A stretch of 64,000 nt of DNA from Aminicella lysinilytica. GTDB taxonomy: Bacteria; Bacillota; Clostridia; Peptostreptococcales; Anaerovoracaceae. Positions 32,402 through 50,339 of the stretch are shown in pieces. The notes under the pieces are model-generated. The model was not told the DNA's origin and searched no databases. It saw only the letters and a list, made by a program, of their open reading frames with translations. Position numbers and translations under genes: made by a program. Numbering within the stretch: position 1 is the stretch's first letter; the number at the start of each line of letters is the position of its first letter. Where the stretch lies: positions 1-64,000 of the forward strand of contig NZ_SNXO01000005.1 of assembly GCF_004362975.1 (NCBI RefSeq), read 5' to 3'.

Positions 32402-33757
32402 TCATTCATTGATCTCATCTTTCAGAGATTTAATGATCTCTTTAAATGAGCTGTCCTTACTTATGTCTTTTTGTATTTTATCACAGGCATGCATTACCGT
32501 GGTGTAATGTCTGCCTCCAAACATACTTCCTATTTTCGGCAATGAGTAATCTGTCATTGTTCTGCAAAGATACATTGCTATCTGTCTTGGAAAAGCTATA
32601 TTATTAGTTCTTTTCGGAGATTCCATTTCTGAAACCTTAATTTTATAATGCCTGCTGACAACAGCCTTGATTTTCTCTGGAGTGATGACAGAACCATCAT
32701 CTTGTATTATATCATTAAGTATATCACTTGCGAACTTTTTATCTATATGTTCATGCAATAATGATGAAAAAGTTACTATTCTGTTGAAAGCGCCTTCCAG
32801 TTCTCTGATATTATCTGTGACCTTCTCTGCAATCAGACATATTACGTCATAGAGATCGTCATCCATTGAAATATTGGCGTTTTCAGCTTTCTTGACCAGA
32901 ATAGCGATTCTGGTTTCATAATCAGCGGGGCTGATACTTGCTATCATATTCCAGGCGAATCTGTTGCGGAGCCTTTCCTCCAGTCTCACCAGTTTATTAG
33001 GCGGACGGTCACTGGAAATCACTATCTGTTTATTAAGGTCGTATAAGGTATTGAAGGTGTAGAAAAATTCTTCCTGTGTCGTTTCCTTACCTTCCAGAAA
33101 TTGAATATCATCTATAAGCAAAACATCGACCTGTCTGTATTTCTTCTTAAATTCTCTGGTTTTATTATCTCCAAGAGCTTTTATGAGTTCGTTGGTGAAC
33201 ATTTCTGAAGAAACATACAGGACATTGATATTATCATTATGTTCAAGCAGGTAAATTCCGATGGCATGCATCAGGTGAGTCTTACCAAGTCCCGAGTCTC
33301 CGTAGATAAACAAAGGGTTATATGCTTCTGATGGAGATTCTGCCACGGCAAGGGCTGCTGCGTGTGCATACTTATTACTGTTTCCTACAACAAAATTATC
33401 AAAGTTGTACCGCGGGTTGAATATCTTCTGTTTATTAAGGTTAGGCGTTACTGTTGAAGTGCTTACTTTTACCGGCTTAATGACAGTAGTATCCTTCTTA
33501 TATTCCTCAGAATTCTTGATTATAACTCTGTAATCATCTTTCAAGACTGTTTTAAAACTTGTCTCGATCAACTGAAGATACCGGGTTTTCAGTATGTTAA
33601 TAATGAAATCCTCATTGGATTCCAAATAAACTATATTTACATCCTCATCTATAGACCTGATCTTAGTTGGTAGAAACCATGTCTTGTAGCTGATGGGTGT
33701 GGTGTTCTTTTCAATTTCTGCTAATACTTTTTCCCAAGTTTTCTGATCGTTATTCAT
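32402..33757 (-). CDS. dnaA: Chromosomal replication initiator DnaA
   Basis: DnaA binds the origin boxes and opens the DNA for helicase loading. The 451-residue protein has the N-terminal interaction domain (ending near residue 75), then AAA+ with Walker A GDSGLGKTHLMHAIG and Walker B VDVLLIDDIQFLEGKE. The C-terminal DNA-binding domain contains the signature MFGGRHYTTVMHACDKI. It starts the dnaA-dnaN-recF operon. The promoter overlaps a DnaA-box-like site, which suggests autoregulation. Confidence 0.99.
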   Translation of the reverse strand: MNNDQKTWEKVLAEIEKNTTPISYKTWFLPTKIRSIDEDVNIVYLESNEDFIINILKTRYLQLIETSFKTVLKDDYRVIIKNSEEYKKDTTVIKPVKVSTSTVTPNLNKQKIFNPRYNFDNFVVGNSNKYAHAAALAVAESPSEAYNPLFIYGDSGLGKTHLMHAIGIYLLEHNDNINVLYVSSEMFTNELIKALGDNKTREFKKKYRQVDVLLIDDIQFLEGKETTQEEFFYTFNTLYDLNKQIVISSDRPPNKLVRLEERLRNRFAWNMIASISPADYETRIAILVKKAENANISMDDDLYDVICLIAEKVTDNIRELEGAFNRIVTFSSLLHEHIDKKFASDILNDIIQDDGSVITPEKIKAVVSRHYKIKVSEMESPKRTNNIAFPRQIAMYLCRTMTDYSLPKIGSMFGGRHYTTVMHACDKIQKDISKDSSFKEIIKSLKDEINE

Positions 33758-33915: not shown

Positions 33916-33945
33916 TTGACAGTTGTCTATGCAATTTGTTAAAAT
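33916..33945 (+). promoter_or_regulatory. Predicted sigma-A promoter of the EIIC-like gene
   Basis: TTGACA (33916-33921) and TAAAAT (33940-33945) are 18 bases apart, 49 bases before the start codon. Confidence 0.6.
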
Positions 33946-33994
33946 AAAACCTGGCAATATTTATATATTGATAATATCAGATTGGAGTAACAGA

Positions 33995-35074
33995 ATGGTA
34001 AATGATAATGAATTAACCTTTTTTCAACGGAAGGATATAGAAATCAGTTTTAAGAGATATGTCCAGGATGCATTGTCTGCAATGGCTTTAGGACTTTTCG
34101 CTTCGCTTCTGATAGGTCTTATATTCAAGACTATCGGCGAGCAGATGATAAATATTCCCGGATTTACAGAAAAGACATGGATCGTATCCTTCCTTATATT
34201 AATAGGAACTACGGCTATGGCAATGATGGGGCCGGCTATAGGAGTAGCCGTAGCCTGGGCTCTGAAAGCGCCGCCTCTGGTACTTTTCTCATGTGCGGCT
34301 GTAGGCCAGATGGGAGCCACGTTTACAGGTTTTGGAATCGAATTCAACGGCGGACCTGCCGGGGCGTTCATTGCAGTAGCAGTTGGCGCTGAATTTGGTA
34401 AGATGGTTTCCAAGGAAACAAAGGTAGACATACTTGTGACTCCGGCTGTAACTTTGCTGGTTGGCGGACTTATGGCCAAGCTGATTGGTCCCGGCGTAGG
34501 CTGGTGCATGCTGAAATTAGGTGAATCAATAGTAACGGCCACAGAATGGCAGCCATTTGTATTTGGCATCTTCATTGCCGTAGTAGTAGGCCTGGTACTG
34601 ACAGCGCCTATATCCTCAGCTGCCCTTTGTATAATGATGGGACTGACAGGTCTGGCTGCAGGTGCCGCAACGGCCGGCTGCTGCGCACAGATGGTCGGAT
34701 TCGCAGTGATCAGCTTCAGGGACAATGGCGTTGGCGGACTGGTAGCTCAGGGCATTGGCACTTCTATGATACAGGTTTCCAACATAGTCAAACACCCATG
34801 GATCCTTTTGCCGCCGACACTGGCAGGAGCCATAACCGGACCTATAAGCACATGTCTGCTTCACATGACCAACAATGCCGCAGGCGCAGGTATGGGAACT
34901 TCGGGACTGGTTGGTCAGATCATGACTCTGACGGACATGGGATTTACGGGAGGAGTATTCCTGAAAATACTTATAGTACAAATAGTACTTCCGGCGATCT
35001 TATCCTACATTATATATGAAATATTACGTAAGGCAGGAAAAATCAAAGACGGCGACATGAAATTAGACATGTAA
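33995..35074 (+). CDS. PTS EIIC-like membrane protein (PTS_EIIC_2 type)
   Basis: This 359-residue protein has about nine to ten membrane segments, glycine- and alanine-rich, with the stretches MMGPAIGVAVAWALKAPPLV and GAGMGTSGLVGQIMTLTDMG. It resembles the PF13303 group of EIIC-like transporters, which lack fused EIIA/EIIB domains and whose substrates are mostly unknown. No PTS phosphocarrier gene is near. The ATG at 33995 with a GGAG box is chosen over an earlier frame start at 33923 that overlaps the promoter. Its place between dnaA and rpmH is unusual: this gap in most Firmicutes holds only the origin. Confidence 0.8.
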   Translation: MVNDNELTFFQRKDIEISFKRYVQDALSAMALGLFASLLIGLIFKTIGEQMINIPGFTEKTWIVSFLILIGTTAMAMMGPAIGVAVAWALKAPPLVLFSCAAVGQMGATFTGFGIEFNGGPAGAFIAVAVGAEFGKMVSKETKVDILVTPAVTLLVGGLMAKLIGPGVGWCMLKLGESIVTATEWQPFVFGIFIAVVVGLVLTAPISSAALCIMMGLTGLAAGAATAGCCAQMVGFAVISFRDNGVGGLVAQGIGTSMIQVSNIVKHPWILLPPTLAGAITGPISTCLLHMTNNAAGAGMGTSGLVGQIMTLTDMGFTGGVFLKILIVQIVLPAILSYIIYEILRKAGKIKDGDMKLDM

Positions 35075-45776: not shown

Positions 45777-46220
45777 ATGGTAGTAATACTGAACAGAGAC
45801 GTTAAAGGCACAGGCAAAGCAGGAGAAGTAGTAAAGGTCAGCGATGGCTACGCCCGCAACATGCTCATTAAAAGAGGCTGGGCTACGGAAGCCACCGATG
45901 GCAACATCCGCAACCTAGAGAAGATAAAGGCTAAGAAGGCTGAGGAAGAAGCTGCAGAAAAGGCAGCCGCTGAGGCTCTCGCAGCGAAGATCGGCGACAA
46001 TGAAGTCATAATCAAGACCAAGTCCGGCGAAGGCGGCAGGCTTTTCGGCTCGATCACTTCCAAGGACATTGCTGAAGCTCTGCTGAAGCAGCACAGCATC
46101 AAGGTCGATAAGAAGAAGATCCAGTTAGACAGTCCCATTAAAGCTTTGGGGACGTTTGACGTAGATATCAAGTTGTATTATGAAGTTGTAGGTACTTTAA
46201 GAGTTAGGATAACAGACTGA
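45777..46220 (+). CDS. rplI: 50S ribosomal protein L9
   Basis: L9 binds 23S rRNA and reaches out from the L1 stalk base. The 147-residue protein has the N-terminal signature GYARNMLIKRGWATEATDGN, a long connecting helix rich in Lys/Glu/Ala, and the C-terminal domain GRLFGSITSKDIAEAL. It starts six bases after the gdpP-like gene and overlaps dnaB by one base. Confidence 0.97.
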   Translation: MVVILNRDVKGTGKAGEVVKVSDGYARNMLIKRGWATEATDGNIRNLEKIKAKKAEEEAAEKAAAEALAAKIGDNEVIIKTKSGEGGRLFGSITSKDIAEALLKQHSIKVDKKKIQLDSPIKALGTFDVDIKLYYEVVGTLRVRITD

Positions 46221-47533
46221 TGGCAGAGAAGATCCCACCCCACAATTTAGAAGCGGAAAGATCGGTACTGGGAGCAGGGCTCCTGAGCAGAGATGCGTTG
46301 GCCGACATTGTTGAAGTAGTTAAACCTGAAGATTTCTACGATGGCTCCAATAAGGAAATCTTTACGACTATGCTGGACATGTTCAGAGAGAACAAGCCCG
46401 TAGATATAGTCACAGTCTGCGATGAGTTGAAACGCAGGAAAGCCCTGGAAGCAGTAGGCGGCAGAAGTTATGTCGCTACTTTGTCCAGCGATGTTCCATC
46501 GACGACCAACGCCGGTGAATACGCCAAGATAGTCGCGGAGAAGGCGTCTATGAGGCAGCTTATCCATACGGCCGAAGAGATCCGCGAGCGGGCCTTTGAG
46601 GAAAATCAGGACACCAACGACATTCTGGATCATGCGGAGAAGAGCATTTTCGACATTGCGCAGTCCAGGCAGTCCAACGATTACTCCGCCCTGAAAGACG
46701 TGCTCTTGACGGACATGAGCCTCATCGACGAGGCCATTAAGAACAAAGGGCAGGTCACGGGCATAACTACGGGGTTCAAGCGTCTGGACGAGGTCACATC
46801 GGGCCTGCAGAGGTCAGACCTTGTCATAGTGGCGGCAAGGCCGTCAATGGGCAAGACGGCTTTCGCCCTGAATATTGCGCAGAATGCAGCCGTCAAGGGC
46901 AATGCATCGGTGCTGATGTTCAGTCTGGAAATGTCCAAGGAGCAGCTGGGACAAAGGCTCTTGGCTATGGAATCCAAGGTGGACATGGAAAATATTAAAA
47001 AAGGCAAGATCGAAAGAGCTGACTGGGACAGGATCATGCTGGCAGTAGACACATTGTCCGGCGCCAACATACAGATAGACGATTCGCCTGCCCTGTCGGT
47101 CTTTGAGATAAAGAACAAATGCAGAAGAATGAAAGCGGAACACGGCCTGGACCTGGTGGTCATAGACTACCTGCAGCTGATGAGGTCCGAGGGAAAAGCG
47201 GAGAGCAGACAGCAGGAGATCAGTAACCTGTCAAGGTACCTGAAACTCCTGGCCAGAGAAATGGACTGTCCGGTCATCGTTTTGTCGCAGCTTTCACGAG
47301 CTCCGGAGCAGAGGCCTAATCACAGGCCGGTGCTATCCGATCTGCGTGAGTCGGGATCTATAGAGCAGGATGCCGATATAGTTATCTTCCTGTACAGGGA
47401 CGATTACTATAATGAAGATTCTGAGAAGCCGGGTGTCTGCGAGGTCAATCTGGCTAAACACAGAAGCGGTCCTACAGGGAGTCTGGAGCTGACCTGGGTC
47501 GCACGTTATACTAAATTCAGCGATAAGGCGTGA
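46220..47533 (+). CDS. dnaB: Replicative DNA helicase
   Basis: This is the hexameric replicative helicase (DnaB in E. coli naming, DnaC in Bacillus subtilis). The 437-residue protein has the primase-binding N-terminal domain (PPHNLEAERSVLGAGLL) and a RecA-type motor with Walker A AARPSMGKTAFALNIA, Walker B LVVIDYLQLM and a late SDLRESGSIEQDADIVIFL. No intein is present. A loader is expected to be needed; the likely candidate is two genes downstream. Confidence 0.98.
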   Translation: MAEKIPPHNLEAERSVLGAGLLSRDALADIVEVVKPEDFYDGSNKEIFTTMLDMFRENKPVDIVTVCDELKRRKALEAVGGRSYVATLSSDVPSTTNAGEYAKIVAEKASMRQLIHTAEEIRERAFEENQDTNDILDHAEKSIFDIAQSRQSNDYSALKDVLLTDMSLIDEAIKNKGQVTGITTGFKRLDEVTSGLQRSDLVIVAARPSMGKTAFALNIAQNAAVKGNASVLMFSLEMSKEQLGQRLLAMESKVDMENIKKGKIERADWDRIMLAVDTLSGANIQIDDSPALSVFEIKNKCRRMKAEHGLDLVVIDYLQLMRSEGKAESRQQEISNLSRYLKLLAREMDCPVIVLSQLSRAPEQRPNHRPVLSDLRESGSIEQDADIVIFLYRDDYYNEDSEKPGVCEVNLAKHRSGPTGSLELTWVARYTKFSDKA

Positions 47534-47544
47534 GGTGAAACACT

Positions 47545-47733
47545 ATGATTACAAAGGATATGAAGATTTGCGACATACTCGACATTGACGACAGGTATGA
47601 GAAGGTGCTTGAGGATCATGGTTTGCTGTGCAATGGCTGTCCGGGGGCTTTTACAGAAAGTCTGGCAGAAGCGGCAGACGGTCACGGCGTAGACGTTGAC
47701 AGTTTATTGAATGATTTGAACAAAGAGATATAA
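47545..47733 (+). CDS. DUF1858 small protein
   Basis: This 62-residue protein belongs to the DUF1858 group, small domains also found fused to hybrid-cluster-type redox proteins. The hallmark is the cysteine pair in HGLLCNGCPGAFTESL near residues 29-32, after the helical start DILDIDDRYEKVLEDH. It starts 11 bases after dnaB (GAGGTGAAAC ribosome binding site) and lies seven bases before the dnaD-like gene. A redox or metal role in this replication block is only suggested by the cysteines and location. Confidence 0.8.
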   Translation: MITKDMKICDILDIDDRYEKVLEDHGLLCNGCPGAFTESLAEAADGHGVDVDSLLNDLNKEI

Positions 47734-47739
47734 GACATA

Positions 47740-49008
47740 ATGAATTTTGTGAGAGAGAAAATAAAAGATTTTTACCTTTTAGATTCAAGGATAGAAAACA
47801 TTTTTATAAATGAATATCTGCCGGCAGCTCCGGGAGATTATGTCAAGGTGTACATATATGGATATATGTATGCTGAGTTTGGCTTGGAAATGACCGATAA
47901 GGTCATGGCAAAGCAACTGGGCATCCCGGAAAAGAAAATAATCGACGCCTGGAATTACTGGGAGAAAATGGGAGCTATTAAAAAGCTCTATGTAGACTCA
48001 GCCGGAGACATAGATTTCACCGTCGAGTTCATAAATCTGAAGGAGCTTATGTACGGAAAGAGTACGGAAGCAATACCTGAGGAGCATGAACCGAGTCCTG
48101 AGATATTCGGAAACGATCAGATAAAGAAGGTGTTCGACAGGGTGGAACAGCTCATGGCCAGAAGCCTTTCTTCGACTGAAGTGACCAGGATACTATCCTG
48201 GATGACTGATGACAAGGTCCCGCCGGAAGTGATGCTTTACGGCATTTCTTATTGCCTAGAAAAGCATAAGAGCAGTCTGAATTACATAGAAAGCGTTCTG
48301 CGGAACTGGATGAAGGATGGCCTCTATACAGTGGATGCAGTCAACGAGCACCTGCAGGATGTAGACCAGCGTTTCTACCAGTACAGAAGGGTATTGAAGG
48401 CTTTAGGCTTCAACAGAAATGCCACAGAAGCCGAGAAGCAGATGATGGATAACTGGTTTGATTCACTGGGATATAATATGGATCGGGTGCTGGAAGCATG
48501 CACCAAGACCGTAGGCATATCAAGCCCTAACTTCAGTTATGTAAACAAGGTATTGCAGAACTGGAAAGATGAGGCAGCCAAGAGAGGGGATAGCGTCAAT
48601 AAGAAGGTCACTGTTACCCAATCAGTATTGAATCAGTATTACGATTACCTGAGAGAAGAAGCAATCAACGCCGCGGAGTCACGTACTAAGGAAATTTACG
48701 AGAAGATCCCGCGGATCAAAGATATAGATGATAAGGTGCAGACCATGGGGTCAGCACTGTCCAAGGCACTTTTGCTCGGCAACGAGGAAGATAAAGGCTT
48801 GGAACTTAGGCAGCAGATGGATCAGCTGGCGGCCGAGAGAGCCGTTTTGCTGACGGAAAACAATTTTGAAATGGATTACACTGATATAAAATACGCCTGT
48901 GATAAATGCAACGATACCGGGATCACAGATCTGGGGGAGCGATGCTCCTGTGCGAAAGAGCGTATGGAAGAGGCTGAGGTATGGCAGAAAACGAAAAACG
49001 AAGCATAG
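47740..49008 (+). CDS. DnaD-like replication protein fused to the N-terminal domain of a DnaC/DnaI helicase loader
   Basis: The first 120 or so residues look like the winged-helix part of DnaD-like proteins. Two DnaB_2-type helical repeats follow (about 125-205, IKKVFDRVEQLMARSLSSTE; about 215-285). From about residue 313 the sequence changes to that of clostridial DnaC/DnaI loaders: TKEIYEKIPRIKDIDDKVQT, RAVLLTENNFEMDYTDIKYA, and the zinc-type CDKCNDTG plus ERCSCAKERM (C387, C390, C402, C404). In ordinary loaders an AAA+ ATPase follows; here the protein ends at residue 422, and no Walker motif occurs in this or the next gene. It probably helps place DnaB at the origin by an ATPase-free or split mechanism (inference). 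Confidence 0.8.
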   Translation: MNFVREKIKDFYLLDSRIENIFINEYLPAAPGDYVKVYIYGYMYAEFGLEMTDKVMAKQLGIPEKKIIDAWNYWEKMGAIKKLYVDSAGDIDFTVEFINLKELMYGKSTEAIPEEHEPSPEIFGNDQIKKVFDRVEQLMARSLSSTEVTRILSWMTDDKVPPEVMLYGISYCLEKHKSSLNYIESVLRNWMKDGLYTVDAVNEHLQDVDQRFYQYRRVLKALGFNRNATEAEKQMMDNWFDSLGYNMDRVLEACTKTVGISSPNFSYVNKVLQNWKDEAAKRGDSVNKKVTVTQSVLNQYYDYLREEAINAAESRTKEIYEKIPRIKDIDDKVQTMGSALSKALLLGNEEDKGLELRQQMDQLAAERAVLLTENNFEMDYTDIKYACDKCNDTGITDLGERCSCAKERMEEAEVWQKTKNEA

Positions 49009-50339
49009 CAGACAAATTCATCGATGCCGGCGCAGCAGTCATAGACTTCCACGACCGCACGCAACAAAAGGCAGACCTGAAGTGTCTGCAGGCCTATTAT
49101 GGCGTTGCTTTGTTCTTGCATAACCGCAGGGATTTTCTGCATGTGCATAAGGCCAAACTACTGGAGTCCTTTGCGATCATCGTATTGGTAGCTATTGCAG
49201 TGCTGGCGGTCTATAATTACGCTACGGGTTATGAGTATTCATATCATGGCAGGGCGTTGGGATATGTCAAGGATCAGGAGGATGTAATCAGAGTACTGGA
49301 CATCACCAGTGCGGAGCTCAGCAAGAGCCATGACGCCAAGATCAAGATAGAACCGGGCAGCGACATAACATTCAAGCGCGTAGTTACCCTGAACGTTAGC
49401 ATAGATGACGATGATACGGTACTTAAGCGTCTGACTTACCTGACTAACATGCGGGCTGACGCCTATTGCATATACATAGATGGAAAGAATGTGGCAGCCT
49501 TGTCAAGCAAGGCAGAAGCTAAGGACGTTATCGATGATGTGGAGAAATATTATCAGACTACCCGCAAGGGCTGGGATACAACATATCAGAAGGTATCCAT
49601 AACTGAAAAACTGAGGTATGCGCCTAAGTCTGTAAGTCTGACAGATGTCAGTACTCGGGAGAGCGCAGTTAACCAGCTGATAAAATCTAAGGCTGTTACA
49701 GTGAAGACCATAGAGAAATCTAAATTCGCTGAAGTCGTCAAGTATAAGACAGTGGTCAAGAAGACTAAGAGCATGTATAAGGGCGATTCCAAAGTAGTCC
49801 AGAAGGGTGAAAACGGTAAGCGCGTGGCCACGGCTATTATAGTCAAGGAAAATGGAAAACAAGTCACCAGGACCAACATAGAACTTAAGGTTCTGAAGCC
49901 TATGGTGAAGAAAGTAGTATATAAGGGCAGCAAAACGCGGCCTAAGACGGCTCCGACGGGGACGTTCATTATGCCTGTATCCGGATATTCCCTGTCATCG
50001 ACCTTTGGTTACAGATGGGGCAGGATGCATGAAGGCGTGGATCTGGCCTGCGGTACTGGAACGCCTATACACGCAGCCGATGGCGGCACAGTAGTCCGCG
50101 CCGGCTGGTACAGCGGCTACGGCAAGTGCGTAGACATCAGTCACGGCAACGGTTACATGACGAGATACGGTCATTGCAGCAAGATCAATGTTCATACGGG
50201 ACAAAAGGTATATCAGGGCCAGACTATTGCCTTAGTCGGCAATACGGGAAACAGCTACGGATCCCATTGCCACTTCGAGGTCAGAGTCAACGGTTCTGCC
50301 AGGAACCCGATGAAATATGTCAATAGAAAGTATCGTTAA
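48981..50339 (+). CDS. M23-family metallopeptidase with G5-type domain, membrane anchored
   Basis: This 452-residue protein is a likely peptidoglycan endopeptidase. One membrane helix (about 57-79, LESFAIIVLVAIAVLAVYNY) anchors it, with the rest outside. A middle part with the G5 pattern (VVQKGENGKRVATAIIVKEN, about 272-310) precedes the M23 LytM-type domain with the zinc motifs MHEGVDLACG (about 350) and SHCHFEVRVNG (about 430). It overlaps the upstream dnaD-like gene by 28 bases and has a GAGG box inside that gene. Confidence 0.93.
   Translation: MAENEKRSIADKFIDAGAAVIDFHDRTQQKADLKCLQAYYGVALFLHNRRDFLHVHKAKLLESFAIIVLVAIAVLAVYNYATGYEYSYHGRALGYVKDQEDVIRVLDITSAELSKSHDAKIKIEPGSDITFKRVVTLNVSIDDDDTVLKRLTYLTNMRADAYCIYIDGKNVAALSSKAEAKDVIDDVEKYYQTTRKGWDTTYQKVSITEKLRYAPKSVSLTDVSTRESAVNQLIKSKAVTVKTIEKSKFAEVVKYKTVVKKTKSMYKGDSKVVQKGENGKRVATAIIVKENGKQVTRTNIELKVLKPMVKKVVYKGSKTRPKTAPTGTFIMPVSGYSLSSTFGYRWGRMHEGVDLACGTGTPIHAADGGTVVRAGWYSGYGKCVDISHGNGYMTRYGHCSKINVHTGQKVYQGQTIALVGNTGNSYGSHCHFEVRVNGSARNPMKYVNRKYR

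Follow-up and report, generated by a model that had tools for sequence, protein, structure and literature searches.

A DnaD-type scaffold fused to a helicase-loader N-domain without an AAA+ domain in Aminicella lysinilytica and its relatives

In Bacillus, the scaffold protein DnaB recruits the helicase loader DnaI through the AAA+ domain of DnaI (PMC13326638), and the N-terminal domains of DnaI supply most of the contact with the helicase, about 1,197 of 1,745 square angstrom (PMC3791466). In C. difficile, a loader with Walker mutations retains helicase binding and apparently loading or activation as well, but restraint of the helicase is lost (PMC5204125). It has long been asked why bacterial loaders keep an AAA+ motor; in vitro the DnaB helicase ring can be opened and loaded without one. 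Here we describe a gene of Aminicella lysinilytica, located at 47740..49008 on the forward strand of a 64,000-nucleotide stretch (contig NZ_SNXO01000005.1, positions 1 to 64,000; hereafter the window), in which a DnaD-type scaffold is joined to the N-domain of a helicase loader and no AAA+ domain follows. The fusion is conserved throughout its family, has originated repeatedly, and occurs where neither a separate AAA+ loader nor DciA is recognisable. It is probably this lineage's chromosomal helicase recruiter and loader, working without an AAA+ motor.

Domain architecture of the fused protein

The open reading frame (ORF) is uninterrupted from ATG to TAG and encodes 422 amino acids (aa). The whole protein matches PF07261 (DnaB_2) with 114 bits (cut-off 22; E 2e-33) through two DDBH2 copies, the first at residues 132-204 (48133..48351, +; profile match and Foldseek match to 2zc2) and the second at residues about 224-279 (48409..48576, +; E 1.9e-10). 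Residues 1-105 (47740..48054, +) form a DDBH1-like winged-helix region in the AlphaFold model, for which Foldseek recovers the DnaD N-domain 2v79 and Geobacillus DnaB 5wtn with probabilities of 0.93-0.99 and weak E-values of about 0.5-1.5. The scaffold half as a whole likewise recovers DnaD and Geobacillus DnaB structures, mostly at weak E-values, and the domain order reads DDBH1 (the weak fold match), DDBH2, DDBH2. An earlier interpretation of the window (the sequence-only reading) had called residues about 1-290 DnaD-like; the scaffold assignment stands, but with two DDBH2 copies the protein is laid out like B. subtilis DnaB or C. difficile CD3653 rather than like B. subtilis DnaD. This is also the only DnaD-domain protein in the window's genome.

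Behind the scaffold, residues 294-409 (48619..48966, +) comprise three helices and a four-cysteine knuckle in the structural model and are identified as a clostridial DnaC/DnaI loader N-domain by NF005304 and hhalign. They align with positions 6-122 of the 330 in NF005304/PRK06835, the clostridial DnaC loader, at E 4.6e-24 (E 8.3e-23 for the segment alone), and profile-profile comparison by hhalign of the C-terminal part of the fusion (46 rows) with the N-domains of full-length loaders (14 rows) gives a probability of 100% and E 5.7e-40. The sequence-only reading thus recognised the loader part and its four cysteines correctly but began it at about residue 313, whereas the match starts near 294. 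The NF005304 score of 85 bits falls below the curated cut-off of 215 bits, which excludes the fusion from the full family with its AAA+ domain. Cysteines C387, C390, C402 and C404 (48898..48951, +) and residue P324 do not vary across two alignments, of 61 and 30 homologues, some sharing as little as 26% identity with the query; the cysteine cluster is a probable zinc site. Pfam DnaI_N has no match in the fusion protein, whose loader part is of the clostridial type; a fold search with the C-terminal 135-residue model gave, among the matches listed, generic helical bundles and no DnaI structure, and a PDB sequence search with the loader-part profile returned nothing.

The AlphaFold model of the full protein has a mean predicted local distance difference test score (pLDDT) of 87 and shows the winged-helix part, two helical DDBH2 domains, three long helices, the cysteine knuckle and a last helix; modelled alone, the C-terminal piece reaches a pLDDT of 94.9. 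No AAA+ domain is matched anywhere in the 422 residues, and the ORF stops about where that domain would start, in agreement with the sequence-only reading. The next gene, considered as context only, encodes an M23 peptidase with a G5 domain (48981..50339, +) and shares 28 bases with the 3' end of the fusion gene.

Conservation and repeated origin of the fusion

Within the window's family (f1), a group of gut and anaerobic bacteria that we take to be Anaerovoracaceae in GTDB, 143 of the 149 genomes sampled carry the fusion, including all 85 with completeness of 90% or more and contamination of 5% or less, and it occurs in 88 of 92 sampled genera. Named carriers are Emergencia timonensis, Eubacterium pyruvativorans, E. 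infirmum, E. minutum, Anaerovorax odorimutans, Clostridium aminobutyricum and Sinanaerobacter, and across the family the gene is mostly a single open frame of about 400-510 codons. The architecture also recurs in families f9, f42, f68 and f15. This comparison of relatives, proposed with the original reading, bears out its argument against recent decay. A frameshift or assembly error near 49008 masking an AAA+ domain, set beforehand as the refuting condition, is excluded because the same open architecture recurs in well over a hundred genomes.

Across the order, a full-length loader scoring over the NF005304 cut-off is found in 171 of 297 genomes. The window's family contributes 112 of the 297, none of them over the cut-off, and three of the remaining 14 genomes below it belong to f9 and carry the same fusion; outside the fusion families f1 and f9, 171 of 182 order genomes have the full-length loader and the other 11 are below the cut-off. 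Separate dnaD and dnaC genes are neighbours that either overlap or lie only a few bases apart, with the loader directly behind dnaD. In the class as a whole, 315 of 392 genomes score over the cut-off, and among those below it N-domain-only NF005304 matches lie within long ORFs in f42, f68 and f15. All six of the ORFs from these families that were read are DnaD-domain proteins with the same C-terminal cysteine module and without an AAA+ domain (the DnaD-domain match of L219 lies above the Pfam and below the NCBIfam cut-off). The f68 and f15 fusions (L218, L219, L220 and L221) are longer, at 560-613 aa, with a longer scaffold half than in the window's family. A single genus of f15 holds both states, fused in G452 and G575, and separate in G378, where dnaD (479 aa) and an AAA+ dnaC (304 aa) lie about 10 bases apart.

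In a tree built from the scaffold and N-domain together (45 rows), the distribution of fused and separate states requires 5 changes, and well-supported branches force at least 4 of them, from which we conclude that the fusion architecture originated repeatedly; long branches and small samples call for caution in reading this tree. Families f1 and f9 form one clade (support 100/100), and approximately unbiased (AU) tests reject a single clade of f15 and f68 fusions (p 7e-5) and of f1, f9 and f42 (p 4e-5). We take the direction to be from separate to fused, because in-frame regain of an AAA+ domain is unlikely. Each fusion could have formed by one readthrough between dnaD and dnaC plus loss of the 3' part.

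Two observations from the same survey stand apart from the fusions. The loader of G467 (C32:199548-200559) is split by a stop into 217 aa (the N-domain and part of the AAA+ domain) and 164 aa (the rest), which may reflect a frameshift, a pseudogene or another route to separation. Genomes G491 and G563 of family f18, both of good quality, have no NF005304 match at E 1e-5, DnaA included.

Proposed helicase loading in the fusion lineage

None of the 149 family genomes has a full-length loader over the NF005304 cut-off, and DciA (PF05258) is absent from the fusion protein, the window's genome and the family (0/149), with no sign of DciA as a replacement loader. The sequence-only reading had allowed for an ATPase either absent or encoded elsewhere; the loader count and the repeated origin support absence, and the candidates examined elsewhere belong to other systems. 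In the window's genome (99.7% complete), PF01695 detects three IstB/DnaC-like ATPases, all intact and each encoded immediately downstream of an IS21 transposase (IstA) gene, and the PF01695 and NF005304 matches are these IstB proteins, DnaA or other kinds of long ORF. The strongest AAA+ matches examined in family relatives lie beside phage or conjugative-element genes. In the closed single-contig relatives G095 and G088, DnaA is the only PF01695 match at E 1e-8, which rules out phage or conjugative-element DnaC as the host loader, and G368 (2 contigs) has no match at that threshold. The IS21-type elements of the window's genome (G000, contigs C24, C30 and C11; L020, L021 and L022) are three different ones, each with IstA and IstB and an open transposase frame.

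Lacking the AAA+ domain, the fusion lies outside the full DnaC/DnaI AAA+ family, but it very probably works like a loader, and we infer that it binds and loads the helicase without AAA+ hydrolysis. The DnaD/DnaB-like half would be expected at the origin on DnaA and DNA, oligomerising there, and the C-terminal half, a loader's helicase-binding domain, would grip the presumed partner, a DnaB-type replicative helicase of 437 aa (46220..47533, +; an ORF with a Walker A motif) encoded 0.2 kb upstream in an order kept in most relatives looked at. In the ancestor the AAA+ motor would have followed the N-domain in a separate gene right behind dnaD, and its loss would be offset by tethering, which would substitute for the Bacillus DnaB-DnaI contact that brings loader and helicase to the origin. 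Because scaffold and N-domain are covalently linked, contact between DnaB and the AAA+ domain of DnaI would be unnecessary, with the contact between N-domain and helicase kept. Ring opening, or assembly on single-stranded DNA, would then be driven by binding and by the ATP that the helicase itself uses rather than by a loader ATPase, and DnaA could be the switch for restraint of the helicase. The DnaI and DnaB contact data and the C. difficile Walker mutants therefore make a tethered, ATPase-free loader plausible. It also seems likely, though we hold this broader proposal a little less firmly, that bacteria have repeatedly made an AAA+ loader ATPase-free by joining its helicase-binding domain to a DnaD scaffold, the motor being dispensable for chromosomal loading once recruitment is covalent.

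Several points weigh against this account. In E. coli, loading becomes more efficient when DnaC turns over ATP (PMC8213410). That the clostridial-type N-domain binds the helicase is argued by analogy with Bacillus DnaI and E. coli DnaC, and the N-domains of these two are not clearly homologous to it. The loader searches rest on homology to known loaders (PF01695, NF005304, PF05258) and could have missed an AAA+ loader that has diverged beyond the reach of PF01695 and NF005304. A further caution concerns the helicase, whose LH-DH module is bound by loaders in DnaB-type enzymes (PMC9912922). We looked at positions W+5 and W+8, counted from W269, the conserved tryptophan in the loader-binding DH helix (47024..47050, +, from W269 to W+8, Asp here); only these two were taken, since the residue reported to tell DciA-type and DnaC/I-type helicases apart (PMC9912922) could not be pinpointed from the published description. 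W+8 is D, E or N in all 80 distinct family helicases (D in 67), D in the single f9 sequence, and A, V, I, K or G in 8 of 8 helicases from separate-loader genomes. This acidic signal may mark a loader-linked change in the helicase, but, coming from one clade and found after looking, it serves as a lead only.

The alternative that survives best is an unrecognised, unrelated loader that does the loading, the fused domain only recruiting or restraining the helicase. Reliance on homology to known loaders leaves room for such a protein, and the C. difficile loader does inhibit its helicase as well (PMC5204125), but we regard it as unlikely: wherever the AAA+ domain has been lost among the lineages examined, it is exactly the N-domain that was retained, joined to DnaD, and there is no loader of a known type. 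Less likely again, the AAA+ domain of DnaA could have taken over the ATP switch via the DnaD half and time helicase release, so that loading would still be AAA+-controlled, by the initiator. In the closed relatives no DnaC-like AAA+ protein other than DnaA is found, and dnaA lies in the same window (32402-33757, -). No change in DnaA came to light, though no search aimed at one was made, and Bacillus DnaA contacts DnaD and DnaB via its domain I, not its AAA+ domain (PMC13326638), and we consider a DnaA-driven switch of this kind improbable. AAA+ proteins of phages, conjugative elements or IS21 occur in many family genomes and might supply the motor, but their patchy, mobile distribution, their absence from closed G095 and G088 and the lack of any PF01695 match at E 1e-8 in G368 make this very improbable. 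A broken dnaC fused by chance, through decay or assembly artefact, is suggested only by the missing AAA+ domain and is scarcely credible beside the open frame, the spread across genera, the invariant cysteines and the repeated origin.

The window has two other features of note. A small DUF1858-like ORF (47545..47733, +; similarity judged by eye) lies between the helicase and fusion genes, and a similar small ORF occupies the same place at locus L094. Between dnaA and yidC-jag-trmE-gidA, near the expected position of oriC, a 383-aa multi-pass membrane ORF (33923-35074, +) is possibly a PfoR/PTS-like permease.

Relation to known loading systems

If the fusion loads the chromosomal helicase as proposed, nature would have shown the loader ATPase dispensable several times once recruitment became covalent, and these lineages would be natural experiments in which the motor has been taken away more than once by the same route. 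Surveys restricted to AAA+ DnaC/DnaI or DciA would make whole families look as if they had no loader, and one compact protein, encoded beside its helicase, suits reconstitution of loading. The scaffold and loader modules are known; we found no paper in the open-licence literature describing a natural AAA+-less loader fused to a scaffold, and the combination appears to be undescribed there.

The closest parallel is C. difficile, where the same two modules occur as DnaD-like CD3653, with the layout DDBH1-DDBH2-DDBH2, and the loader CD3654, encoded by adjacent genes near the helicase gene (PMC5204125); there, however, the modules are separate proteins, with a full AAA+ domain in the loader, whereas here they make up one protein that lacks it. 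The fusion shares scaffold domains and a loader N-domain with zinc-binding-type cysteines with B. subtilis DnaD, DnaB and DnaI, but one protein seems to cover the roles of those three, AAA+ DnaI included, and its N-domain differs from that of DnaI in having no Pfam DnaI_N match. Like DciA, which is ATP-independent (PMC8213410), it would load the helicase without an AAA+ domain, but the two have no sequence relation. It also resembles the isolated helicase-binding domain of E. coli DnaC, a loader N-domain that works without its ATPase in vitro; that domain is an unfused laboratory truncation, whereas the fusion described here is a natural state.
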